Shown here: one piece after another, positions 26,963 through 39,303 of the stretch
Position numbering within the stretch: position 1 is the stretch's first letter
Layout: each line of letters begins with the position of its first letter
NCBI RefSeq assembly: GCF_030811595.1
Contig: NZ_JAUSRB010000002.1
Span: 2,976,001-3,040,000 of the forward strand
Reading direction: 5' to 3'
DNA from: Streptosporangium brasiliense
GTDB lineage: Bacteria; Actinomycetota; Actinomycetes; Streptosporangiales; Streptosporangiaceae
Length of the DNA stretch: 64,000 nt
Notes under the pieces: generated by a model
The model's input: only the letters and a program-made list of their open reading frames with translations
Database searches by the model: none
What the model was told of the DNA's origin: nothing
Program-made: the position numbers and the translations under genes

Positions 26963-28168
26963 GTGGCTGTTACGCCATCCTCCATCTCCATCTCCTCCGA
27001 ATCCCTCGAAGCCCTCGACCTGGATCCGGCCTTCGCCCTGCACCGCGGCGGCAAGCTGGAGACCCGCTCCACTGTCCCGGTCAACAACGCCGACGACTTG
27101 GCGCTCGCCTACACCCCCGGGGTGGCGAGGGTCTGCACCGCGATCGCCGAGCAGCCCGAGCTCGTCAACGACTACACCTGGGTGTCCAACGTGGTCGCCG
27201 TCGTCTCTGACGGCACCGCCGTGCTCGGGCTCGGCGACATCGGGCCCGCCGCCGCCATGCCGGTGATGGAGGGCAAGGCCCTGCTGTTCAAGCAGTTCGC
27301 CGGTGTCGACGCGGTGCCGATCTGCCTCGACTGCACCGAGGTGGACGCGCTGGTCGAGACGGTGGTGCGGCTCGCGCCCTCCTTCGGAGGCATCAACCTC
27401 GAGGACATCAGCGCGCCGCGCTGCTTCGAGGTCGAAGACCGGCTGCGCGGACTCCTGGACATCCCCGTCTTCCACGACGACCAGCACGGCACCGCGATCG
27501 TCGTGCTGGCGGCGCTGACCAACGCCGCCCGGCTGACCGGCCGCTCACTGGGCGACCTGCGGGCCGTGGTGGCGGGCGCCGGAGCCTCCGGCGTGGCGGT
27601 CAGCCGCATCCTGCTCAACGCGGGCATCGGTGACATCGCGGTGTCCGACTCCAAGGGCCTGATCCACCAGGGCCGCGACGGCCTCAACCCGGTGAAGGAG
27701 GCGCTGGCGCGCGACACCAACCGGGCCGCCCTGCGGGGCTCCACGGAGGAGGCGCTGGCCGGTGCCGACGTGTTCGTCGGGCTCTCGGGCTCGACGGTGT
27801 CGGAGGCGGCCATCGCTTCGATGGCGCCCGGCGCGATCGTCTTCGCGCTGTCCAACCCGGAGCCCGAGGTGCACCCGGCGGTCGCCGGCCGGCACGCCCA
27901 GGTGGTGGCGACCGGCCGCTCCGACTTCCCCAACCAGATCAACAACGTGCTGGCCTTCCCCGGCGTCTTCCGGGGGGCGCTCGACGTCCGCGCCACCACC
28001 ATCACCGAGAACATGAAGGTGGCCGCGGCCCAGGCGCTGGCCGCGGTGGTCGGCGACGATCTGTCGGCCGACTACGTGATCCCGAGTCCCTTCGACGGAC
28101 GCGTGGCCCCCGCGGTCATCGCCGCGGTGGCCGCGCAGGCCCGCGCCGACGGGGTCGCCCGCCTCTAG
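26963..28168 (+). CDS. NAD(P)-dependent malic enzyme
   Basis: Malic enzyme decarboxylates malate to pyruvate, producing NAD(P)H. The 401-residue protein is the short bacterial type. It has the N-terminal malate-binding part ([30 protein letters not shown]), catalytic residues around [16 protein letters not shown], and the dinucleotide motif [16 protein letters not shown]. It lacks the phosphotransacetylase-like extension of longer MaeB enzymes. GTG 26963 is the start. A palindrome and a mini-ORF lie upstream; a strong terminator lies 178 bp downstream. Confidence 0.94.
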
Positions 28169-28345
28169 CCGTCTTTGGCGGCGCCGTCCCCGTCCGCGGG
28201 CGTCGGTCCCGTCCCTGTCCCTGTCCCCGTCCGTCCGCGGGCGTCGGTCCCGGCCTGTATCCAGGTCCGGGCCCGTCCGCGCCGACGGCGCCGCTACCAG
28301 TGCAGCCCTTCGGGCGCGTCCGCGAAGACCTCCGGATCCGCCTGT

Positions 28346-28383
28346 GAAGACGCCTCTCGCCCGATCGGGCAAGAGGCGTCTTC
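28346..28383 (+). terminator. intrinsic terminator after malic enzyme
   Basis: GAAGACGCCTCT pairs perfectly with AGAGGCGTCTTC, with the palindrome GCCCGATCGGGC inside, then TGCTTTTGGG. This ends the malic enzyme unit. The 370-bp gap 28169-28538 also has a 20-bp duplication (28192-28211 and 28233-28252) and an echo of the hairpin arm, ATCGGGCAAGAG, near 28446. Confidence 0.85.
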
Positions 28384-28538
28384 TGCTTTTGGGAAATTCA
28401 AAAAACAGTCACGGATCGTGCTATAAAAAAAGCTCTCCGTCACCTATCGGGCAAGAGTGTGCACGAGGGACGGATACGGGCGCAGGGGGGCGCGGACGGG
28501 TTCCGGCGCCCCGGCGGCTTCTCACGGTGAGGAGAGCG

Positions 28539-29897
28539 GTGGAACGCGAGCCCAACCAATTGCTTCAGCGACTCATCGCTGAAGCGGGTTTCACACACAA
28601 AGGACTGTCCCGCAGGGTCAACGACCTCGGCGCGGCCCGGGGTCTGCCAGGCCTGAAGTACGACCACAGCTCCGTGCTGCGCTGGATCGGCGGCCGGCGG
28701 CCGAGGGATCCGGTGCCGGGACTGCTGGCGGAGATCTTCGCACTCCGGCTCGGCCGGACGGTCAGCCCGGAAGATCTCGGTCTGCCGGTCGTCTCGACCC
28801 CTTCCGACCTCGGGCAGGAGTTCACACATACATGGCAGGAGGGGATCGCGACCGTGACGGCACTGTGGCGGGGAGATGTTGAGAGACGCAGGTTCCTGCT
28901 CGATTCGACCTTCGCGATCGGGGCCGGGTCCGCCGGTGCCCTGCGCTGGCTGACCCTCCCGCTGGAGAGCCGTCCCGTCGCGGGCGGCGCCCGGCGGGTG
29001 GGCATGGCCGACATCGAGGCGATCCGGGAGGTCACCCGGTCCTTCGGCGAGCTGGACAACAGGTTCGGCGGCGGCAGGGTCCGCTCGGCGGTCGTGAAAT
29101 ATCTGGACACGGCGGTCGCGCCGCTGCTCAGTGACGGCTCCTACGGCGAGAGCACCGGCAAGGCGCTGGCGTCGGCCGCGGCCGAGCTGACCCGGCTGGC
29201 CGGATGGATGGCCTACGACCTGGAGCAGCACGGTCTGGCCCAGCGTTACCTGATCCAGGCGCTGCGCCTGGCCCGGGGGGCGGGGGACCACGGACTCGGC
29301 GGTGAGATCCTCGCCGGGATGAGCCACCAGGCCCTCTACATAGGGCAGCCCGCGCACGCCCTCGACCTGGCGCGCGCCGCGCAGCTGTCGGCCCGTCGCG
29401 CCGGGGTCTTCGCCCTGCTGGCGGAGGCGCAGGTGCTGGAGGCCCACGCCCACGCCCTGATGGACGACCGGGGGGCCTGCGCCAACTCCCTGCACGGCGC
29501 CGAGCTGGCCTTCGACCAGCGCGAGGCCGGTGACGAGCCCGACTGGATCGCCTACTTCGACGAGGCTTACCTGTCGGCCAAGTTCGCCCACTGCTTCCGC
29601 GACCTGGGCGACGGGCCGGGGGCGGTACGGCACGCGACGCGGTCGCTGGACATGGACGGGCGCTACGTCCGCGGGCGCATGTTCAACCTGTCGCTGCTGT
29701 CGGCGGGGCTGCTCGGGTGCGGCGAGGTGGAGCAGGCCTGCGTGGCCGCCGGTCAGGCGCTGGAACTGGCCGGGGGGCTGCAGTCGGCCCGCACCCAGTC
29801 ATACGCCGCCGACCTGCGGCGGCGGCTGGCCCCCTTCGCCGGCGAGCCCGCCGTGCGGGAGCTGAACGAGCGGACCAGGGAGTTCAGTCTCGCCTGA
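28539..29897 (+). CDS. HTH-TPR transcriptional regulator (NsdA-like family)
   Basis: The 452-residue protein has an N-terminal degenerate helix-turn-helix region (EPNQLLQRLIAEAGFTHKGL, then SRRVNDLG) and a C-terminal region of tetratricopeptide-like helices (about 150-445, repeated AxxLxxAAQxLxLAGG patterns). This architecture is common in large actinomycete families of developmental and antibiotic regulators such as NsdA. The ligand and targets are unknown. I chose GTG 28539 by homology of the start and AGGAG upstream, though the spacing is short; GTG 28527 is close. It ends before a convergent terminator and pseudoprotease P1. Confidence 0.75.
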   Translation: MEREPNQLLQRLIAEAGFTHKGLSRRVNDLGAARGLPGLKYDHSSVLRWIGGRRPRDPVPGLLAEIFALRLGRTVSPEDLGLPVVSTPSDLGQEFTHTWQEGIATVTALWRGDVERRRFLLDSTFAIGAGSAGALRWLTLPLESRPVAGGARRVGMADIEAIREVTRSFGELDNRFGGGRVRSAVVKYLDTAVAPLLSDGSYGESTGKALASAAAELTRLAGWMAYDLEQHGLAQRYLIQALRLARGAGDHGLGGEILAGMSHQALYIGQPAHALDLARAAQLSARRAGVFALLAEAQVLEAHAHALMDDRGACANSLHGAELAFDQREAGDEPDWIAYFDEAYLSAKFAHCFRDLGDGPGAVRHATRSLDMDGRYVRGRMFNLSLLSAGLLGCGEVEQACVAAGQALELAGGLQSARTQSYAADLRRRLAPFAGEPAVRELNERTREFSLA

Positions 29898-30043: not shown

Positions 30044-31636
30044 CTACTTGACGATCGAGCCGGACCACACGTTGGCAGCCTTGTTGTAGATCATGGCGGT
30101 CTCGCCATCGAAGTACGCCGAGGTGCTCAGGTCGTAGCGGCCGTTCTTGTCCTGGTCACCGAACAGGCTGGTGACACCGTTGACGTAGCCGAGACGCTTG
30201 GCGCTGCTGTACTTGACGAGCCACGGGGAGCCGTTGGCGCCCGGGGTCATCGCGCACTTGAGGCCAACGTGCTCCTCGACCTTCTCAGCCGCGGAGACGT
30301 ACACCTTGCCGGTGGTCTTGCCGTAGCACCACTTCGGCGTCGTGCCGGTGTAGGCCTTGTTGCCGTCGGGGTGAGCGTCCGCCGGGTAACCGAAGATGTA
30401 CACGGTCTGGCCGGTCTTCTGGTTCCAGGTGAAGCCCTGGCCACCAACGGCCTCGCCGAGACGGCCGGTGTCCTTGATGAAGCCGTCGATGACGTAGTAG
30501 GTCTCGACCCAGTACCGCGTGGCGGTGGTGGTCTTGACCCACTTCTTCACGTAGAACTGCTGCTTGGTCCAGCCAATGACGTTGCCCTTGGCGTCCTTGA
30601 CCTCTTCGAGGTTGCCCAGGAAGCCGCCGCTGGCCTTCTTCGCCTTGAGCTCGTTGTACTCCTCAAGGCTGATGTTGACCAGGTTGCTCAGACGCTCGAA
30701 CTTGTTGCCGTTCTCCAGGCCGGAGGGGGCAGCGTCGTACACGCTCTTGACAACCTCGGCGCCGACCAGCTTGACGCCGTCCTTGCCCTCGGCGATGTAC
30801 TTCTCGATGTTCGCAGCAGCGTCAGCCGGCTTGGCGACGGTCTCGACCTTGGGGTCGACAGCGGCCGACTTGTACGGGCCGTCCTGGCCGTACTTCTCCA
30901 GGCCGGCCTTGTACTCGGCCTCGGTGATCGACTTCTCGTCCACGACCTTGGCGCCCGTGTACTTGTCGAAGTCAGCCTTCGTGACCTGCTTGGGGGTGCC
31001 GCCGCCGACCTGCACACCGTTGTAGACGGTGACGAAGGCGTAGTCCTTGTCACGGTCGTTGAACATGGTGTAGTCGTAGTGGGTGTACGCCTGCTTGCCG
31101 ACGAACACACCGAACGGCGCCTTGCCCTGGTAGTAAGCCGGGACGAAGACCCAGTTGTCCATGACACTGGCGTTCTTCTTGTCGTCGTAGACGCAGCTAC
31201 CGGCCGTGGCGACCAGGTTGCGGTACTTCGACTGGATCGAGGTGGCGGAGCACCACTTGAGGTCGCCCTCAGCGTCAACGAAGAACACCTTGCCGATGGT
31301 GCGCGGCAGGTTGATGTTCTTGACGACGGAGGTGGACTTCTTCTCCTCGCCGATGGGGGCGATGGTGCCGGGCTTGCCGTCGGGGGTGTAGCCACCACCG
31401 GCGTTCAGCGTCGGCGTCGCCTTGGTCTCCCAGGTGTAGGGGGTCGCCTTGGCGAGGTTGTTGGTGTGGTTGTTGGCCGCGAGCCAGAACTTGGCGACCG
31501 CGACGGCGGACGGGGCGTCCTTGGCCATCGTGTCAAAGGCCCAGTCCGGGTTGGCGTTGGCGGTGCCAGCCAGACCGGCGGCCAGCAGGCCGGTGGCGAG
31601 AACGGCGCCGCCGGCGGGGAGGAGGATGCGCTTCAA
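30044..31636 (-). CDS. P1: secreted trypsin-fold pseudoprotease with 175-residue insertion
   Basis: P1 has a signal peptide (LLPAGGAVLATGLLAAGLAG, cut after TANA) and the chymotrypsin/V8 fold of its four neighbours, but the catalytic triad is broken. Where the others have TAAHC or TAGHC, P1 has TAGSC (Ser147). The Asp of KDYAFVTVY is kept (Asp198). The nucleophile motif GASGGP is GANGSP (Asn468). Both cysteine pairs are kept. A 175-residue insertion (about 208-385), rich in Lys and Glu, separates the barrels and is shared with P4. The start is probably TTG 31636 with AAGGAG five bases upstream; ATG 31678 would add 14 residues. It cannot be a classical serine protease; a binding or decoy role is inferred. 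Confidence 0.82.
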   Translation of the reverse strand: MKRILLPAGGAVLATGLLAAGLAGTANANPDWAFDTMAKDAPSAVAVAKFWLAANNHTNNLAKATPYTWETKATPTLNAGGGYTPDGKPGTIAPIGEEKKSTSVVKNINLPRTIGKVFFVDAEGDLKWCSATSIQSKYRNLVATAGSCVYDDKKNASVMDNWVFVPAYYQGKAPFGVFVGKQAYTHYDYTMFNDRDKDYAFVTVYNGVQVGGGTPKQVTKADFDKYTGAKVVDEKSITEAEYKAGLEKYGQDGPYKSAAVDPKVETVAKPADAAANIEKYIAEGKDGVKLVGAEVVKSVYDAAPSGLENGNKFERLSNLVNISLEEYNELKAKKASGGFLGNLEEVKDAKGNVIGWTKQQFYVKKWVKTTTATRYWVETYYVIDGFIKDTGRLGEAVGGQGFTWNQKTGQTVYIFGYPADAHPDGNKAYTGTTPKWCYGKTTGKVYVSAAEKVEEHVGLKCAMTPGANGSPWLVKYSSAKRLGYVNGVTSLFGDQDKNGRYDLSTSAYFDGETAMIYNKAANVWSGSIVK

Positions 31637-31911
31637 GGTGACTCCTTGGTCTGATGTGGAACGCTTCTTGCGTCCCATGCGTCAGTAAAGGGATAGCCAG
31701 AACATACAGGGCTGATCTTGAGGATCGGAAGCCGCTTTGAGGGGTAAGGACCCCATGCGCCGGGCCGAGATCATTCTGTGATGTTTGAACGGCTGCGGAG
31801 TGGTTGTTGTGCTTGAGGCTGATGCGCTGCGTTTCCGCAGATAGGCGGGAGCCTGTTGTGAATGTGACCGATGTGGCGTGAGTGCCCCGATACGTTCGGT
31901 CACGAGAGCGA

Positions 31912-31927
31912 TGTGACGCAGATCACA
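31912..31927. promoter_or_regulatory. perfect CRP-type palindrome
   Basis: TGTGACGCAGATCACA fits TGTGA-N6-TCACA in all ten bases. It lies 276 bp upstream of the P1 start in an AT-richer stretch (31680-31975) with no gene. It matches the CRP box type also seen before whiB1. Distance to a promoter is not fixed, since no clear -10/-35 is visible. Confidence 0.55.
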
Positions 31928-32031
31928 TCAGATCAATGGCACCGATTTGCCGGAAGTCACGTCTAACGCGCACGATCCGCCGCCGGATCCGGGGTCCCGG
32001 GACCCCCGGAAGGCCGGAAAACAGGGCCTTC

Positions 32032-32138
32032 GAGCCTCCGCGAGGCCCTGGATCGGGGTTCCCGAGCCCTCCGCAAGCCCCGGATCCGGCTCTCAGAGCC
32101 TCCGCGAGGCCCTGGATCGGGGTTCCCGAGCCCTCCGC
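32032..32138. repeat. minisatellite between P1 and P2
   Basis: A 43-bp sequence occurs identically at 32032-32074 and 32096-32138, period 64. Each 64-bp period consists of two related 32-bp halves of the type GAGCCTCCGCGAGGCCCTGG. Degenerate halves continue to about 32250. The 847-bp gap 31637-32483 contains this array, the CRP box and the P2 terminator, and no gene I can support. Confidence 0.8.
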
Positions 32139-32408
32139 GAGACCCGGATCAAGCCCCTGTGCCCCGGAAAATTCTCGGATCACGCCCTCCGGCCCCTCGC
32201 GAGAGCCCGGATCGGGCCTCCGGATCTCGCGGGAAGTCTCCGGCCCGCGCTCTCCGGTCTTCCGGGGCCGGGCCCGGCCTTCCTGGAACCCGGCTGGATC
32301 CGGTCTTCCGGGAACCCCGGAGGGGCTTGGAGGGCCCCGGGAGGTCCCCGGGTCGCGTTCTCCGCCCCCGCGGGCCCCGGGTGAGGGCCGCCGACCCCGG
32401 AAACGGGT

Positions 32409-32438
32409 GCGGGACCCGGCGCACGCGCCGGGTCCCGC
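32409..32438 (-). terminator. hairpin terminator after P2
   Basis: GCGGGACCCGGCGC pairs perfectly with GCGCCGGGTCCCGC around an AC loop, giving a 14-bp stem. It starts 46 bp beyond the P2 stop codon in its direction of transcription. Confidence 0.85.
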
Positions 32439-32483
32439 GGGTGAAGCTGAGGTGCCTGGGCCCCTTGCCGGGGCCGGACAGGC

Positions 32484-33548
32484 TTACTTGCGGACGATCG
32501 AGCCGGACCACACGTTGGCGGCCTTCTTGTAGATGTCGGCCGTCTCGCCGTCGAAGTAGGGCGAGGTGATCAGGTCGTAGCGGTTGTTCTTGTCCTGGTC
32601 GCCGAACAGGCTCGTGACGCCGCTGACGTAGCCCAGGCGCCGGCTGCTGCTGTACTGCGACAGCCACGGGCCGCCGTCGGCGCCGGGGGTGAAGGCGCCC
32701 TTGAGGCCGACGTGCTCCTCGACCTTCTCCGCGGCGGAGACGTAGATCTTGCCGGACGGCTTGCCGTACACGTACTTGGGCGTCACGCCGCTGTAGGGCT
32801 TGTTGCCGTCGGGGTGCGGGGCGGCGGGGTAGCCGAAGGCGTAGACCGGCTTGCCGGTCGGCTGGTTCCAGGTGAAGCCCATGCCGCCGACGTTGTCGCC
32901 GAGGCGGCCGACGTCCTTGAGGCCGCGGTCGAAGCCGATGCCGTTGTAGACCGTGACGAAGGCGTAGTCCTTGTCGTAGTCCTCGAAGACGTCGAAGTCG
33001 TAGTGCGTCCACGCCTGCTTGCCGACGTAGATGCCCCACGGCACCTTGCCCTGGTAGTAACCCGGGACGAAGACCCACTTGTCCATGGTGTGACCGTTGT
33101 TGGCGGTGTCATAGACGCAGTGGGCGGCCGTGGCGACCAGGTTGCGGTACTTCGACTGGATCGAAGTGGCCGAGCACCACCGGAACTCGCCGTTGGCGAC
33201 GAAGAACACCTTGCCGATGGTCTTGGGCAGGTTGACGTTCTTGACGAGCGCCGGGGTGGGATTCTCCGCGCCGATGGGGGCGATGGTACCGGGCCGCCCG
33301 TCGGGGGAGTAGCCGCCGCCGGCGGTCAGCCTGGGGGTCGCGGCGTCGGGCGAGTAGGCGGTCGCCTTCTTCAGGGCCACGTAGTTGGAGGCGGCCCAGA
33401 ACCTGGCGACGGACAGCGCCGACGCCTCGGTGCCGGCCATCCTGTCGGTGGCCCAGTCCGGCGCGGCCTGGGCGGTGCCGGTCAGGCCGACGGCCAGCAG
33501 ACCGGTGGCGAGTGCGGCGCCACCGAGGGGGAGAAGAGAGTGCTTCAA
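32484..33548 (-). CDS. P2: secreted trypsin-fold pseudoprotease (nucleophile Asp)
   Basis: P2 (354 residues) has a signal peptide ending TAQA and the compact fold without the insertion. His143 (TAAHC) and Asp194 (KDYAFVTVY) are kept, but the nucleophile motif is GADGGPW, with Asp291 for Ser. Two other changes go together: the Cys of the KWCYG loop is Val260 (KYVYG), and the Cys before the nucleophile is Gly284 (LKGAF), so one disulfide is missing entirely. The C-terminal 90 residues are closest to P1. The start is TTG 33548 with AAGGAG eight bases before. P2 should be proteolytically inactive yet folded and secreted; its role is unknown. Confidence 0.82.
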   Translation of the reverse strand: MKHSLLPLGGAALATGLLAVGLTGTAQAAPDWATDRMAGTEASALSVARFWAASNYVALKKATAYSPDAATPRLTAGGGYSPDGRPGTIAPIGAENPTPALVKNVNLPKTIGKVFFVANGEFRWCSATSIQSKYRNLVATAAHCVYDTANNGHTMDKWVFVPGYYQGKVPWGIYVGKQAWTHYDFDVFEDYDKDYAFVTVYNGIGFDRGLKDVGRLGDNVGGMGFTWNQPTGKPVYAFGYPAAPHPDGNKPYSGVTPKYVYGKPSGKIYVSAAEKVEEHVGLKGAFTPGADGGPWLSQYSSSRRLGYVSGVTSLFGDQDKNNRYDLITSPYFDGETADIYKKAANVWSGSIVRK

Positions 33549-33642
33549 AAGAGGTGCTCCTTGCGCTGCAACGTCTCCAGAAGTCTGGAAACTGCGGGAC
33601 GACAAGCAACAAACCTATGTAGGCCCCTGAATACAGAAGTGC

Positions 33643-33686
33643 GACCTAAGGCTCCCTTAAGGCGTATTTAAGACGCCTATAAGGTC
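33643..33686 (-). terminator. hairpin after P3
   Basis: GACCT (33643) pairs with AGGTC (33682-33686), and AGGCGT (33660) with ACGCCT (33673-33678). The right arm overlaps the P3 stop codon. The same 136-bp gap must hold the P2 promoter. Confidence 0.55.
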
Positions 33687-34848
33687 ATCTAGCCCGCTGG
33701 CTGTCCGCCCACCGATAGACGACGTAGGTCGACGCGATGAAGTACGGCGAGGAGATCAGGTCGTACTTGCGGTCGGTGTCGGTGTCCCAGGCGAAGCTGT
33801 TGACACCGTTGATGTAGCCGAGGCCGGTCTCGGGGTCGTAGTCGACCAGCCAGGGGCCGCCGCTCGCCCCGCCGGTGAACCCGCACTTGAGCGCGACGCC
33901 CAGCTCGACCAGGCGGGCGGGGGCCGTCCTCCGGCTGGTGCGCCCGCTGCACCAGCGCAGCTTCTGGCCGTCGTAGGGCCTGCTGCCGTCGGCCTGGGGG
34001 GCGGCGGGGTAGCCGAAGGCGAGAGTGGACTGGTTGATGCCGCGCCTGACCACCAGGCCCTGGCCGCCGACGTTGTCCTCCAGGCTGCCCACGGACTCCA
34101 TCTCATAGGTGTTCGCGGTCTTGCCAGGCTTCCACTTGAACCCGTCGTGCACGTTGACGAAGGCGTAGTCGTAGTCGTAGTCGCCCTCGCCGACGAAGCT
34201 CTCGTGCAGGTTGAGGGAGTGACCGACGTAGATCCCGTAAGGGGTGGCGCCCCTGTCGTAGCCCGGGATGAAGATCCAGTAGTCGGCGTTCTTGGCCTGC
34301 TTGGCGTCGTAGGCGCAGTGCCCGGCCGTGGCGACCAGGCTGCGGCTCTTGGAGGCCACCGCCGAGGCGGAGCACCAGTAGTCCTTGTCCCCGATCCGGA
34401 AGAACACCTTGCCGACGGACATCGGGGAGTTCCCGATGACAGGGGGAGTGTCCTTCGGGAGCGTGGGCCTGACGGTGCCGGCGGTCGCGCCGCTGCTGTA
34501 GGCCGTGGTGGCCGTCGCCTTGCTGCCCGCCGCGGCGGCGGTGGCCGTGGTGGCGGTGCCGGTGGGCGTGGGAGAGGCGGGCGCCGAGGAGGTGGTGCCG
34601 CCGCTGGGCCTGATCTCGGGCGTGGCGGGGGTGTTGTCCTGCGCCTCCTTGAGCCTGGCCGGGCTCCAGTACTCCGCGATCCGCTTCATGTCCGCGCTGT
34701 TCTTGGTCAGCGTGATGGAGGTGATGCTGCTGGGCGCGTAGAGGGCGCCGTCGGCGTTCGCGGCCCCGGCGGGCGCGGACATCACGAGCACACCACTGGC
34801 GACGAGGGCGCCGAGTGTGGTCGCGAACCGCCGTGCGCGGGGGAACAT
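33685..34848 (-). CDS. P3: secreted trypsin-like serine protease
   Basis: P3 (387 residues) keeps all catalytic residues: His177 in TAGHC, Asp228 in YDYDYAFVNVH and Ser329 in GASGGPW. Both disulfide cysteine pairs are present (WCS...HC and RWC...KC). A Ser/Thr/Ala linker of about 50 residues (TSSAPASPTPTGTATTATAA) lies between the N-terminus and the protease domain. The mature N-terminus, ALYAPSSITSITLT, resembles the first strand of subtilisin inhibitor SSI. It has no insertion. The start is ATG 34848 with GAAGGAA; this is the only family member here not starting with TTG. Specificity is unknown. Confidence 0.88.
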   Translation of the reverse strand: MFPRARRFATTLGALVASGVLVMSAPAGAANADGALYAPSSITSITLTKNSADMKRIAEYWSPARLKEAQDNTPATPEIRPSGGTTSSAPASPTPTGTATTATAAAAGSKATATTAYSSGATAGTVRPTLPKDTPPVIGNSPMSVGKVFFRIGDKDYWCSASAVASKSRSLVATAGHCAYDAKQAKNADYWIFIPGYDRGATPYGIYVGHSLNLHESFVGEGDYDYDYAFVNVHDGFKWKPGKTANTYEMESVGSLEDNVGGQGLVVRRGINQSTLAFGYPAAPQADGSRPYDGQKLRWCSGRTSRRTAPARLVELGVALKCGFTGGASGGPWLVDYDPETGLGYINGVNSFAWDTDTDRKYDLISSPYFIASTYVVYRWADSQRAR

Positions 34849-35001
34849 GAAGGCCGTTTCCTTCGGGGGATCAGGGGTGGAATGGAGGGCTGTAAGAGGT
34901 GATTTTTCCAGATCAACTAAGTTTTGGGCAGCTCAGTTGCTTGATCCGCTTTACACCGTTATCCAGTTAAGTCTTACCTGATAGGCATAAGCACCCCGTC
35001 A

Positions 35002-35041
35002 AAGGGTGGGAGAGCCCTGTGGCAGCGGCCCTCCCACCCTT
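35002..35041 (-). terminator. hairpin terminator after P4
   Basis: AAGGGTGGGAG (35002-35012) pairs perfectly with CTCCCACCCTT (35031-35041), with GCC/GGC extending the stem. It lies 14 bp past the P4 stop. The P3 promoter must lie between here and 34848, in AT-rich sequence. Confidence 0.8.
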
Positions 35042-35054
35042 ACGACGTCGTCGC

Positions 35055-36638
35055 TCAGCCCGGGAGCTTGCCGGTCCAGAGGTTGGCGGCGTGCTTGTAG
35101 ATGCCGTAGGTCTCACCGTTGAAGTACGGGGTGGTGACCCGGTCGTAGCGGTTGTTCTTGTCGCTGTCGATCGTCAGGCTCACGACGCCGTTGAGGTAGC
35201 CGGTCCGCGTGCTGCTCTTGTACTGCAGCAGGAACGGGCCGCCGCTGGCGCCCGGGGTGAAGGCGCACTTGATCGCCTGCTGCTCCTCGGCCTTGAAGGC
35301 CGAGACGACGGGCGCGGCGCCGGTGGTGCCGTAGCACCACTTCATGGTGTGCCCGGAGTAGGGCTTGTTGCCGTCGGGGTGGGCGGAGGTCGGGTAGCCG
35401 AAGGTGAAGACCTTCTTGCCCAGCTTCTGGTTCCAGGTGAAGCCCTGGCCGCCGACGTTGTCGCCGAGGCGGCCGGAGTCGGCCATGAGCACCACGAAGT
35501 ACTTCGTGTGGAAGTACAGCTCCTTGACGGTGGTCTTGACCCACTTCTTGACGAAGTACTGGGTCTTGAACCAGGCGATCTCGGTGCCGTTGGCGTCCTT
35601 GGTCGCCTCAAGCTTGCCCAGGAAGTTGCCGTTGCCCTTCTCCTTGAGGAGCCTGGCGTACTCCTCCTGGCTGATCGGGGTCTTGACGGTCTTCCGCTCG
35701 AACTTGTTGCCGTTCTCGAAGCCCGAGGGAGCCTTGGCGTAGACGCTCTCGACGACCTCGGCGGCGGTCAGCTTGACGCCGTTCTTGCCGGTGGCGATGT
35801 ACTCGTCGACGTTCTTGGAGGTGACGTCGGCGGGCTTGGCCACGGTCTCGACGGTCGGGTCGGCCGCCTTCTTCCAGTACGGGCCGAGCTCGCCGTACTT
35901 CTCGTAGCCCGCCTCGAACTCGGACTTGGAGATCGCCTTGTCCTCGGTGTACTTGAAGCCCTTGGCGGCCTCGTACTCCGAGCGGTTGACCTCCTTGACG
36001 CCCGTCTGCTTGAAGCCGTTGTAGACGTTGACGAAGGCGTAGTCGTAGTCGTAGTCCTCGAAGACGGTGAAGTCGTCGTGGGTGTTGACCTTGGCGCCGA
36101 CGTAGATGCCCCAGGGAGCCTTGCCCTGGTAGTAGCCGGGGATGAACACGAAGTTGCTGAACGGCTTGTTCGTGTCGGTGTCGTAGACACAGTGGGCCGC
36201 GGTGGCGACCAGGTTGCGGTACTTCGACTGGATCGAGGAACCGGAGCACCAGCGCTCCTGGCCCTTGTCGTCAAGGAAGAAGACCTTGCCGACGGTGATG
36301 GGCAGGTTCAGGTTCTTCGACCGGCCCGCGGACTTGCCGCCCTCGCCGGTGGGGGCGATGGTGCCCGGCTTGCCGTCGGCGGCGGCCTTGGCGGCGCCGG
36401 TCTTCGTCAGCTTGGCCGAGACGGTGGAGTCGGCGACGTAGCTCTTGGCGGACTTGAGCTTGGAGGAGGTCCAGTAGCCCGCGATGGCCTTCGCGTTACC
36501 GGAGGAGGTGAGCGCCGACGACTTGATGTCGGGCTGGGGCGCTGCCTGGGCGGCGCTTGCGAGGGGGACGCCGATCATGGTGGTGGCCACGAGGGCACCG
36601 CCGAGGGGGAGGACCAGGCGCTTGGCTCGGGAGTTCAA
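35055..36638 (-). CDS. P4: secreted trypsin-like serine protease with 175-residue insertion
   Basis: P4 (527 residues) has an intact triad: His149 (TAAHC), Asp199 (YDYDYAFVNVY) and Ser465 (GASGGPF). It has a signal peptide ending ASAAQA. Like P1, it carries a Lys/Glu-rich insertion (about 210-385) between the Asp strand and GRLGDNVGGQGFTWNQ. The inserts of P1 and P4 share blocks such as VETVAKPAD, ENGNKFER and VKKWVKTT. No known domain is recognised in the insert; it could bind substrate, cell wall or the inhibitor. The start is TTG 36638 with AAGGAG. It is divergent from the SSI-domain gene. Confidence 0.86.
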   Translation of the reverse strand: MNSRAKRLVLPLGGALVATTMIGVPLASAAQAAPQPDIKSSALTSSGNAKAIAGYWTSSKLKSAKSYVADSTVSAKLTKTGAAKAAADGKPGTIAPTGEGGKSAGRSKNLNLPITVGKVFFLDDKGQERWCSGSSIQSKYRNLVATAAHCVYDTDTNKPFSNFVFIPGYYQGKAPWGIYVGAKVNTHDDFTVFEDYDYDYAFVNVYNGFKQTGVKEVNRSEYEAAKGFKYTEDKAISKSEFEAGYEKYGELGPYWKKAADPTVETVAKPADVTSKNVDEYIATGKNGVKLTAAEVVESVYAKAPSGFENGNKFERKTVKTPISQEEYARLLKEKGNGNFLGKLEATKDANGTEIAWFKTQYFVKKWVKTTVKELYFHTKYFVVLMADSGRLGDNVGGQGFTWNQKLGKKVFTFGYPTSAHPDGNKPYSGHTMKWCYGTTGAAPVVSAFKAEEQQAIKCAFTPGASGGPFLLQYKSSTRTGYLNGVVSLTIDSDKNNRYDRVTTPYFNGETYGIYKHAANLWTGKLPG

Positions 36639-36957
36639 TCTAGCTCCTTCTTTGTCATGGGCCACTCGGGACGACGGCCCACGCATGCGTAAAGAGACAA
36701 GACGAGACCGTACTAGGCAAAGAACGGTTAAAGAGCAACAAATCGGACAGAAGCTCGGACCGATATGAGTTCGTTACCAAAATCGTGGAACCGAATTTTC
36801 AAGATCCGCGTCTGATCTACCTTCCCTTGACCGAACCCGCGGGCGTGTGCCGTACAAGACCATGACCTGCGAAAACATGAGAGTCGGTCGTTGCTGGGGC
36901 GGGACGCTTGGGGGACGCTGAGCGGGCACTCGACACGATGTGAAATCGGGGGATTTC
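36639..36957. other. divergent promoter region between P4 and the SSI-domain gene
   Basis: This 319-bp gap contains no gene. It is AT-richer than average (GGTTAAAGAGCAACAAATCG near 36727) and has an imperfect dyad around 36772-36800. Both the P4 and SSI-domain genes must be driven from here, so a shared operator is possible but not identified. Confidence 0.5.
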
Positions 36958-37752
36958 ATGCGACGTCTCTTCCATCTGGCAGCCGCCGGAGCCTTCGTGT
37001 TCTCCACCACGGCTGCCGCTGTACCACCGCCGCCGGTGCCCAACGGGCCCGGCCCGGCCGTCCCGCTGCCGGCTCCGCGGCCTGTCCCGCAGCCGGTGCC
37101 GCCATGGTCCGGCCCGGGCAGGCCCGGCCCCGGCGGGCCCGGTCCGCACTGGCCCGGTCCGGGGGGATCCGGTCCGCACTGGCCGGGGCCCAACTGGCCC
37201 GGTGGGCCCGGCCCGAACTGGCCCGGCCCGGGCAGGCCGGTCCCGCCGCGTCCGATCCCGCCGCGTCCGGTCCCGCACTGGCCCGCTCCGCACTGGCCGG
37301 GTCCGCAGTGGCCGGGCCCGAACTGGCACGGTCCGTACTGGCCCGGTTCGCACTGGCCGGGCCCGACCTGGCTCAGCTCCAACTGGCCCGGCCCGGGTGT
37401 GCCGGTGCCGGTCAGGCCGATCGCGCAGCTGCTGCCGCCCGGCAGCACGAAGGCGTTCGTGCTGAGCATCGCCGAGGGGGAGAACTCGGCGGCCGCGGCC
37501 CGTCACGTCCTGCTGGTGTGCGACCCGCCGTACGGCACGCACCCCACCCCGGTCGCGGCGTGTGAGGCGCTGGCCCAGGTGGGAGGCGACATCGCCAGGC
37601 TCAGGCCGCTGCCGAACCTGGTGTGCGCGATGGCCTACGACCCGATCACGGTGACCGCGACCGGTATCTGGGACGGCCGGTCCATCCGGTACGAGCAGAC
37701 CTTCGGCAACGCGTGCTCGCTGCGCGGCACCACCGGTCTGATCTTCTCCTAG
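36958..37752 (+). CDS. secreted subtilisin-inhibitor (SSI) domain protein with Trp-Pro-Gly-Pro repeat region
   Basis: This 264-residue protein has a signal peptide (MRRLFHLAAAGAFVFSTTAA), a Pro/Gly/Trp-rich repeat region (about 23-160) and a C-terminal SSI-family domain (about 163-264). The four cysteines, Cys188, Cys202, Cys223 and Cys253, have SSI spacing (14, 21, 30). LLVCDPPYGTHPTPVAAC, LAQVGGDIARL and IWDGRSIRYEQTFGNAC match SSI blocks. The reactive site falls in CAMAYDP, so P1 is Met225 as in SSI itself. ATG 36958 follows GGGGGA. It lies among five protease-fold genes on the opposite strand, so it is probably the inhibitor of one or more of them. SSI proteins normally lack such a repeat region. 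Confidence 0.88.
   Translation: MRRLFHLAAAGAFVFSTTAAAVPPPPVPNGPGPAVPLPAPRPVPQPVPPWSGPGRPGPGGPGPHWPGPGGSGPHWPGPNWPGGPGPNWPGPGRPVPPRPIPPRPVPHWPAPHWPGPQWPGPNWHGPYWPGSHWPGPTWLSSNWPGPGVPVPVRPIAQLLPPGSTKAFVLSIAEGENSAAAARHVLLVCDPPYGTHPTPVAACEALAQVGGDIARLRPLPNLVCAMAYDPITVTATGIWDGRSIRYEQTFGNACSLRGTTGLIFS
37276..37395 (+). repeat. 15-bp tandem coding repeat (x-Trp-Pro-Gly-Pro)
   Basis: Eight in-frame 15-bp units encode pentapeptides HWPAP, HWPGP, QWPGP, NWHGP, YWPGS, HWPGP, TWLSS and NWPGP. Less regular versions begin near 37140. Such aromatic-proline repeats may bind cell wall or glycans, but I know of no exact match. Confidence 0.85.
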
Positions 37753-37783
37753 CGCGCCGCGGTCCCTGTGGCGCCGGAACGCG

Positions 37784-37813
37784 GAGGGGCCCGGTCGGGA
37801 GACCGGGCCCCTC
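37784..37813. terminator. bidirectional hairpin terminator
   Basis: GAGGGGCCCGGTC pairs perfectly with GACCGGGCCCCTC around GGGA, a 13-bp stem. It separates the stops of the SSI-domain gene (37752) and convergent P5 (37874). Confidence 0.85.
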
Positions 37814-37873
37814 GTCGCGCCGGGCCGGCCGAATGGCCTCACAGCCGGTGCGGTGCGATGTGCCGTGCCGCGG

Positions 37874-38986
37874 TCAGTTGGTCCAGCGGTTGGCCGCGAC
37901 CTTGTAGACCTGGTAGGTGTCCCCGTTGAAGTACGGCGAGGAGATCTTGTCGTACCGGTCGTTCTTGTCGGTGTCCCACGCGACGCTGTTGACGCCGTTG
38001 AGGTAGCCGGTCCGGGTGGAGTTCTTGTACTTCAGCAGCCAGGGGCCGCCGCTGGCGCCCGCGGTGAAGGCGCACTTGAAGCCGGTGTGCTCCTGGAGGT
38101 TGTACTTCGGCGCGGCGGGCATGGCGCCGGTCGTGCCGTAGCACCACTTCATGGTGCGGCCGGTGAAGGGCCTGTCCCCGTCGGGGTGGAGGCCGGTCGG
38201 GTAGCCGAAGGAGAAGACCTTGCCCTTGACCTTCTGGTTCCAGGCGAAGCCCTGGCCGCCGACGTTGTCGCCGAGCCTGCCGACGTTCTTGATGACCGGC
38301 TTCCACGTGCCGGCGGAGTCCTTCTCCCAGTTCACCTTGGACCCGGAGTGGACGTTGACGAAGGCGTAGTCGAAGTCGTAGTCCTCCTTCACCACGAAGT
38401 CGTCGTGCGCGTTGAACCACTTGGCCGCGTAGATGCCGTAGGGGTTCTTGCCGTTCCACGCCTGGTCGCCGTCCCAGTAGGACGGGATGAAGATCCAGTT
38501 GTCGTAGAACCGGTTGGTCTTCACGTCGTAGACGCAGTGCGCCGAGGTGGCGACCAGGTTGCGGTACCTGCCCTGGACGGAGCTGCCGGAGCAGTACTTC
38601 CAGCTGCCCGGGTCCAGCGGGTTGGCGCCCGGCAGGGTGAAGAAGATCCGGCCGACGGTGTTGGGCAGGTTGACCTGCTTGCTCTTGGCCGACCTGGTGC
38701 CCTCCTGGCCGGTCGGCGGGACCGATCCGGGCCGCCCGTCGGGGCCGGCCGCGCTGGAGGCCCTGCCGCCCTTGACGCTGATGTCGAGGTCGCCGGTCGC
38801 GTCGGTGGCCTTGCGCATCCGCTCCGGGGACCAGAAGGCGGTGGCCTCCGTGGGCGTCTCCGAGGCGGCCGAACTGACCACGTCGCTGGGGGCCGTACCG
38901 GCGTTGGCGCCGGTGGTGGCGCCGATCACTCCGGCGATCAGAAGGCCGGTGAGGGGGATCGTGAGGCGCCGTGCTCGGGGGTTCAA
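37874..38986 (-). CDS. P5: secreted trypsin-like serine protease
   Basis: P5 (370 residues) keeps His150 (TSAHC), Asp207 (FDYAFVNVH) and Ser312 (GASGGPW), with both disulfide pairs (KYC...HC and KWC...KC). The signal peptide is TIPLTGLLIAGVIGATTG, cut near ANAG. There is no large insertion; the loop at that place is about 20 residues. The start is TTG 38986 with GAGGAG. It shares the C-terminal RTGYLNGV and NDRYD blocks with P4. It is separated from the other four by the SSI-domain gene, on which it converges. Confidence 0.87.
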   Translation of the reverse strand: MNPRARRLTIPLTGLLIAGVIGATTGANAGTAPSDVVSSAASETPTEATAFWSPERMRKATDATGDLDISVKGGRASSAAGPDGRPGSVPPTGQEGTRSAKSKQVNLPNTVGRIFFTLPGANPLDPGSWKYCSGSSVQGRYRNLVATSAHCVYDVKTNRFYDNWIFIPSYWDGDQAWNGKNPYGIYAAKWFNAHDDFVVKEDYDFDYAFVNVHSGSKVNWEKDSAGTWKPVIKNVGRLGDNVGGQGFAWNQKVKGKVFSFGYPTGLHPDGDRPFTGRTMKWCYGTTGAMPAAPKYNLQEHTGFKCAFTAGASGGPWLLKYKNSTRTGYLNGVNSVAWDTDKNDRYDKISSPYFNGDTYQVYKVAANRWTN

Positions 38987-39303
38987 TGGAGCTCCTCTCG
39001 TTCTCGGCCAGGGACGGGACATCCCTTGCCAGGAAAACGTTCGGAACGTTACTGAATGGATCAAGAAGCCGGATGGGAATTGACGAGAAAAGGCCGGAAA
39101 TGGTTCCCCTTGATGCGGAGCTGTTATTTAAATAGCCATTAGTTATAATTTAACCAGTAGGTATCCTCCCAGGTGGGCTGGGGTTTCAGGTCGATGGGGC
39201 GGCATCCCGGGCATCACTGGTAGCAGTCCTTACCGCCGGTTTCCCGGGTAACTCAAACAACTCCGGACTATTAACCCGAATGATGTTCTGGTTGGATGTC
39301 CGC
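38987..39303. other. AT-rich divergent promoter region between P5 and the thiolase-like gene
   Basis: The 317-bp gap holds no gene. The stretch 39115-39170 is strikingly AT-rich for this genome and includes the palindrome TATTTAAATA. It probably carries the P5 and thiolase-gene promoters. I cannot assign a regulator. Confidence 0.45.

Follow-up and report, generated by a model that had tools for sequence, protein, structure and literature searches.

Two matched classes of an inserted domain in a secreted trypsin-fold protease and pseudoprotease cluster of the Streptosporangiaceae

The protease cluster and its conserved inactive members

The window analysed here is a 64,000-nucleotide stretch of the genome of Streptosporangium brasiliense (contig NZ_JAUSRB010000002.1, positions 2,976,001 to 3,040,000), whose minus strand carries, at 30044-39064, five secreted chymotrypsin-fold paralogues, P1 to P5, with a plus-strand gene of the SSI (Streptomyces subtilisin inhibitor) family lying between P4 and P5. 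In P1 and P4, an insert of about 176 residues separates the segment with the catalytic Asp from the second half of the fold, and this insert occurs across the family in two classes, A and B, which are strongly if not absolutely matched within a genome and have repeatedly been switched together. The two-class polymorphism is the strangest feature of the locus and is absent from the initial annotation of the window, which had described five secreted trypsin-fold paralogues on one strand and an SSI gene on the other, a layout with which open frames and profile matches agree. The features of the locus, in window coordinates, are as follows.

30044-31678, minus strand: P1, secreted pseudoprotease with a class A insert; His replaced by Ser, Ser replaced by Asn
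30479-31015, minus strand: insert domain of P1, class A; 179 residues, 53% identical to the P4 insert
32484-33605, minus strand: P2, secreted pseudoprotease without insert; Ser replaced by Asp, second cysteine pair lost; confident structure model (predicted local distance difference test, pLDDT, 89)
33685-34848, minus strand: P3, secreted protease without insert; triad intact
35055-36686, minus strand: P4, secreted protease with a class A insert; triad intact; structure model pLDDT 86
35487-36014, minus strand: insert domain of P4, class A; P4 residues 225-400, 176 residues
36940-37752, plus strand: SSI-family inhibitor; signal peptide, Pro/Trp-rich stretch, SSI domain with four Cys and Met as the reactive-site P1 residue
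37874-39064, minus strand: P5, secreted protease without insert; triad intact
28344-29897, plus strand: NsdA-family regulator, context only; conserved neighbour on the P1 side

Signal peptides at the locus were assigned by eye, and the true starts of P2 and P5 are unsure because the mechanical frame opens with TTG in both; scans for promoters and terminators gave results at chance level.

All five paralogues match the Pfam family Trypsin_2 weakly, under its cut-off (E values of 1e-4 to 1.1e-3), and P4 matches Trypsin at an E value of 5e-6, over the cut-off of that family. The double beta-barrel fold is recovered by structural comparison of the P4 model, across its protease core only, with two actinobacterial secreted S1-type proteases of similar core, namely Anisep (3wy8; 216 residues aligned, root-mean-square deviation 2.2, Z 27.9, 30% identity) and AL20 (3cp7; Z 27.6 over 214 residues, 28% identity), which the core also matches by profile at E values of 2e-25 and 4e-24, respectively. 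The solved chains of both enzymes (216-219 residues) leave no room for an insert of the P4 type. In the alignment, the catalytic Asp is present in all five proteins, and the remaining active-site motifs read ATAGSC and GANGS in P1, ATAAHC and GADGG in P2, and HC and GASGG in P3 to P5. P3, P4 and P5 have the His-Asp-Ser triad of S1-type proteases in order with GASGG and are predicted to be active; P1 (Ser-Asp-Asn) and P2 (His-Asp-Asp) lack it and, judged by these residues, are pseudoproteases. The initial annotation had divided intact from broken triads in the same way, and its shared cysteine pairs also hold, apart from the WC...KC pair in P2, which reads YV...KG, and the WCS motif in P5, which reads YCS.

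The window's host is a Streptosporangium near S. canum (P4 95% identical). The clustered family is present in all 16 genomes of the genus that were searched, with some clusters cut by contig ends, and a P4-like match at an E value of 1e-40 occurs in 108 of 249 genomes drawn from the order (21 of 57 genera); among the matches listed, all 108 belong to the same genus or the same family. The loci analysed comprise the best 69 of the search and 22 further unique stretches, with one genome per species, and the family tree was built from 271 proteins of the window and the 69 loci. The locus recurs across the Streptosporangiaceae, with P3 (52 proteins), P5 (24) and P4 (34) as three mainly active orthologous lineages found across genera, and with a remaining, pseudoprotease lineage (161) that contains P1 and P2. 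The initial proposal that one locus unites active proteases, inactive relatives and a gene for an SSI-type inhibitor has held up across the family, in which the inactive relatives are stable and the arrangement is conserved.

The nucleophile position is occupied by Ser throughout the P3 and P5 lineages, and by Ser (26), Thr (7) or Asn (1) in the P4 lineage, where the single Asn-bearing member has a weakly supported placement. All seven Thr cases are the P4 proteins of Sphaerisporangium (GATGG in 7/7; loci L091-L095, L097 and L100). The main group of the fourth lineage numbers 136 proteins, of which 121 have Asp at this position, 7 Asn, 5 Ser, 2 Ala and 1 Gly; support is weak for the branch by which one Sinosporangium protein joins the remaining 135. 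Leu or Met takes the place in ten proteins of Microtetraspora and Acrocarpospora, which form a group apart. Another group, of 14 Sphaerisporangium proteins, is for the most part intact (Ser in 12, Ala in 2), and a single protein from Rhizohabitans also has Ser. Six steps on the tree suffice for all changes between Ser or Thr and other residues. Of the 380 longer proteins in the enlarged set, only 4 lack the catalytic His, and the P1 of the window is among these.

Random decay of P1 and P2 is ruled out, since the Asp is common to 121 of 136 sequences of one lineage and short Asp paralogues have a ratio of nonsynonymous to synonymous divergence (dN/dS) no higher than that of short active ones. 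Among species pairs chosen by hand, the median dN/dS is 0.35 for short Asp paralogues (13 pairs) and 0.45 for short active paralogues (25 pairs); the insert-bearing values, 0.57 for Asp paralogues (24 pairs) and 0.46 for active ones (12 pairs), are whole-gene values that mix core and switched insert. Short insert-less pseudoproteases have the lowest median dN/dS among the inactive groups, and the insert has seemingly been lost at least twice, in P2 of the Streptosporangium group and in the short Asp paralogues of Nonomuraea. The pseudoproteases of Microtetraspora and Acrocarpospora (L110, L111, L115, L116, L118, L120, L121, L123, L124 and L127) stand alone, with no other paralogue in view; their second cysteine pair is replaced by Ser or Thr, and their inserts are all class A.

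Two insert classes and their joint switching

The insert domain is confined, in the searches made, to relatives of the host. Five queried inserts gave no match in Pfam up to an E value of 1, and no relative of the insert was found among PDB sequences. One class A query found no relative in 50,697 phage records, and one class B query none in 72,556 plasmids. In genomes drawn from the taxonomic class, the insert occurs in 10 of 345, all ten of the window's genus or family, within frames of 525-685 amino acids; the window's own genome holds no other copy of the insert and no silent cassettes. Clustering and a tree of 213 inserts agree on 107 members of class A, the window's type (median 178 residues), and 106 of class B (median 151), with an average identity between A and B of 25-39%, even between the closest hosts. 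Each class occurs in active and in inactive paralogues. Both are found within Streptosporangium, Planobispora and Nonomuraea, and some smaller genera have only one.

The replacement of one class by the other is sharply bounded, as is seen most cleanly in two sister pairs, S. canum and S. minutum (L071/L084) and S. pseudovulgare and S. sandarakinum (L072/L089), in which the median identity per 150-base window is 98% over 21 kb. In both pairs all 8 insert windows drop to 34-74%, against 83-100% for the other protease windows and 90-97% for those of the SSI gene. Replacement has affected both the P4 and the P1 insert, which lie 5 kb from each other, and has left the rest of the cluster's coding sequence in place; further windows below 80% (five in L072/L089; six in L071/L084, including two at its extreme end) all lie outside the protease and SSI genes. 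Of the second pair, S. pseudovulgare has class A and S. sandarakinum class B. One large imported block is ruled out in these pairs because the sequence between the inserts, including P3 and P2, remains near background identity, the P1 core directly before the insert being somewhat lower, at 83-86%, in L071/L084. At the protein level, the differences between switched P4 proteins set in near residue 225 and end near residue 403, with mostly 15-20 identical positions per 20 residues in the core and mostly 2-11 in the insert, and the proportion of synonymous differences (pS) of P4 in the two sister pairs is 0.04-0.05 in the core and 0.28-0.33 in the insert. Associations of core positions with class, uncorrected for relatedness, are scattered only.

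Between sister species, the whole-gene dN/dS of P4 reaches 1.65 and that of several P1-type genes 0.7-1.07, against mostly 0.2-0.6 in P2, P3 and P5 of the same pairs; the raised values of P4 and of the P1-type genes arise because the divergence is local to the insert. Within the insert itself, dN/dS is 1.20-2.61 in pairs switched in class or type, a signal of positive selection that is not relied on because these high-GC (guanine-plus-cytosine) genomes have a strong codon bias; in a same-class P4 pair (window and S. canum), the insert dN/dS is 0.20. Simple hypermutation of the P4 insert is ruled out, as the proportion of nonsynonymous differences (pN) of same-class inserts is 0.025 versus 0.024 for the core.

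Matching of class within a genome is evident from the 68 loci with at least two inserts, which are all A in 31 cases, all B in 34 and mixed in only 3; the 65 uniform loci compare with a mean of 20.7 and a maximum of 34 in 5000 shuffles of class within orthologue groups. The protease core served as a control, using the 86 of 180 within-locus pairs that fall in orthologue combinations seen in at least four loci: the insert identity within a locus is 0.519 versus 0.416 in the shuffled null (maximum 0.454), and the core identity is 0.594 versus 0.588 (maximum 0.591). Because related loci are not independent, class was also mapped on a tree of the insert-free P3, in which 62 loci require 15 class changes; supported branches make 11-12 of these unavoidable. 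Across 12 independent pairs in which the class of one paralogue differs, the other paralogue has switched the same way in 9-10, in the opposite way in none, and is unchanged in 2-3 (p about 0.002).

The divergence of P4 has the appearance of an old polymorphism carried through speciation. Same-class P4 inserts diverge alongside the core, with average identities of 0.95 at a core identity of at least 0.95 and 0.71 at 0.80-0.85, and inserts of different class stay at averages of 0.25-0.33 whatever the core bin, the closest hosts included. A similar pattern would be expected from repeated exchange between close relatives, and would not be expected were transfer between distant genera the main cause. 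In the two large pseudoprotease groups, different-class inserts average 0.30-0.39.

Candidate explanations for the matched inserts

Discrete classes with sharp edges in conserved genes, together with variable parts that match inside a genome, are the marks of a recognition locus, and both are found here. The explanation put forward, for which the chances appear about even, is that the inserts are co-adapted recognition domains held as two matched haplotypes, and that the insert-bearing proteins cooperate. In such a secreted protease system, an active P4 and one or more P1-type pseudoproteases would carry a common extra domain, through which the insert-bearing proteins of one cell would act together, either by binding one another or by all binding one partner. 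Classes A and B would be ancient and mutually exclusive versions, and mismatch would be costly, with selection favouring the same version in all copies of a genome, such that the inserts, though separated by kilobases of ordinary sequence, act as a single co-adapted haplotype. Balancing selection might hold both haplotypes in parallel over the family, most likely driven by type recognition, whether of self versus other or in evasion of an outside agent that targets the common type. The pseudoproteases would then provide the domain without cutting, as carriers or anchors rather than as decoys for the SSI protein. A more specific form of this proposal, offered tentatively, is a two-type compatibility system of the Streptosporangiaceae in which A and B resemble mating-type or self-recognition haplotypes that predate the split of the genera, and in which the pseudoproteases are non-cutting carriers of type that must match the active protease.

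Several observations weigh against so simple a scheme. P2, P3 and P5 of the window have no insert at all. The three mixed loci (L103, AAB; L109, AB; L140, AB) imply that mismatch is at least sometimes tolerated, and the excess of within-locus core identity over its null, 0.006, implies that a little exchange between paralogues does occur. In the sister pairs L076/L077 and L080/L081, the pseudoprotease insert alone has changed, to another type inside class A. Moreover, at a core identity of at least 0.95, the same-class inserts of the two large pseudoprotease groups average only 0.75 and 0.56 (range 0.36-0.94); these inserts do not follow the core well, so that only P4 gives a clean picture of two old stable alleles, and more types exist inside the classes.

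Concerted evolution without function, in which recombination brings a new insert into one paralogue and gene conversion then passes it on to the others, with matching as a by-product, is a doubtful alternative to the co-adapted haplotypes, and has real points in its favour: inserts are more alike within a locus than across genomes, L087, L145 and L168 hold recent duplicates whose inserts are identical, and past gene conversion is required, because class outranks paralogue in the insert tree. Such conversion has not been continuous, however, since just 6 of 180 within-locus pairs exceed an insert identity of 0.85 and all six are whole-gene duplicates with a core identity of at least 0.94. Several insert clades are, moreover, specific to one paralogue across species, for instance the seven class B inserts of P4 from Streptosporangium and Planobispora, while other clades mix paralogues; and the two cleanest sister pairs have B inserts in P4 and P1 that belong to separate types, t8 and t9, rather than being copies of each other.

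It is unlikely, in comparison, that the classes reflect an outside agent, such as a phage, a predator, or the inhibitor or toxin of a competitor, that binds or attacks the insert, or that the insert is an exosite for one of two substrates, with all copies switching together because one agent confronts them all. Secretion of the proteins, the roughly even frequencies of the classes (31 A and 34 B loci), and the further types inside the classes, above all in Nonomuraea, would accord with this reading; nothing points to such an agent, however, and the phage and plasmid searches described above contained no insert relative, which an attacker need not carry. As for alternative substrates, a dead protease cuts none, though it could bind one.

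The co-adapted haplotypes invite comparison with known recognition systems. Two papers on the kin-recognition receptor TraA of myxobacteria describe a variable domain on a conserved protein that sorts strains into types (PMC6372800, PMC6626042). TraA itself is one receptor on the cell surface, of which many types exist, whereas the locus of the window has a protease and several pseudoproteases sharing a domain of two deep classes. In the comQXPA loci of Bacillus, the variable genes are linked and matched between conserved flanks, and one contiguous variable stretch joins the peptide to its receptor. In the window, by contrast, separate paralogues each carry a copy of the one domain, and the sequence between the copies is conserved. 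The comQXPA pherotypes form distinct specificity groups that function within and not between groups, as outlined in one study (PMC4408185). The het and mating-type loci of fungi are eukaryotic and act after cell fusion, whereas the present system is bacterial. To our knowledge, these fungal systems include no protease family of the window's kind. Mating-type idiomorphs are ancient balanced polymorphisms with a narrow footprint. Studies of fungal het loci report the same of them (PMC11138114 among others).

No paper on this locus was apparent in the open-licence literature, among the matches listed and as far as titles and the starts of abstracts reveal. If the co-adapted haplotypes are real, they would constitute an unusually clean case of a long-lived matched polymorphism in bacteria, in which separate genes of an extracellular protease family trade one domain in matched sets and two versions of it persist over much of a bacterial family. 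They would also make testable why bacteria retain conserved dead proteases beside live ones, and what holds the frequencies of recognition types even over long periods; S. canum with S. minutum and S. pseudovulgare with S. sandarakinum are near-isogenic natural pairs at the locus.

The SSI gene and the surroundings of the cluster

The SSI family (PF00720) is known for canonical inhibition of serine proteases. The window's protein matches its domain at 93.3 bits against a cut-off of 23.9, and has the four Cys and a loop of the C-x-M-x-Y-D-P type (NLVCAMAYDPI) in which the reactive-site P1 residue is Met, as the initial annotation had read it. Unlike the usual family member, it is encoded divergently beside its likely target and carries a Pro/Trp-rich stretch. 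This stretch (GPHWPGP type; window 37020-37430) lies between the signal peptide and the SSI domain, and appears to evolve fast because its length and make-up are quite different in 15 other loci.

Genomes of 6-11 Mb contain just 1-3 SSI matches each, and the gene stands divergently beside the cluster, next to P4, in 12 of the 16 genomes of the genus, an association beyond what chance would give. The other four have no SSI gene at the locus, which counts in part against the initial annotation, for relatives lacking the gene had been named there as evidence to the contrary. Across the genus, the P1 residue of the cluster inhibitor is Met in 8, Leu in 3 and Glu in 1 (n = 12), and that of dispersed copies (18 read of 22) is Arg in 8, Glu in 4, Gln in 3, Leu in 2 and Lys in 1; owing to this difference, the cluster SSI looks like a distinct inhibitor. 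In Sphaerisporangium, the SSI adjoining the Thr-bearing P4 has Lys or Arg as its P1 residue in six of seven cases and His in one.

Among 67 loci with enough upstream sequence, the SSI gene is present in 34 of 40 with P4 versus 10 of 27 without (Fisher p 7e-5, relatedness uncorrected), and loci with no pseudoprotease in view, several of them cut by contig ends, hold it no less often (9 of 10) than those with one (35 of 57). From gene presence and residues, its target is most likely the active proteases; under the co-adapted haplotypes, the SSI protein would restrain the active members, chiefly P4. That pseudoproteases serve instead as decoys soaking up the inhibitor, as the initial annotation had suggested, is highly improbable: they share its locus, a chymotrypsin fold that mostly keeps His and Asp could still present a binding cleft, and ten loci without P4 hold the SSI gene alongside two to four pseudoproteases, but the decoy role is rejected as the main explanation because SSI presence follows active P4 and not the pseudoproteases, with 16 of the 17 loci that have neither P4 nor SSI retaining three to five pseudoproteases, and Sphaerisporangium-type clusters without a pseudoprotease in view retaining SSI.

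The surroundings of the cluster are also conserved. The NsdA-family regulator lies beyond the P1 end in all 35 loci that extend at least 2 kb past the last paralogue; in the window it stands tail-to-tail with P1 and is followed by a malic enzyme gene (26963-28168). Of 51 loci with P3, 32 show the malic enzyme gene, and 33 and 24, respectively, have a quinone-oxidoreductase-like and a thiolase-like gene on the P5 side, these last two named according to our own reading; many of the remaining loci are truncated at a contig or locus end.

Outside the cluster, the window's genome contains a second, distant tandem pair of insert-less relatives, about 31-33% identical to P2 (G000:C1:336003-338059; L010, L011), and similar distant tandem pairs occur in other genomes of the genus. 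In at least seven genomes of the genus, a dispersed SSI gene is located 10-27 kb from such a pair. A short frame of 192 amino acids in the same genome (G000:C2:5874970-5875425; L009) matches only the C-terminal part of the protease family and is probably a remnant or partial gene.

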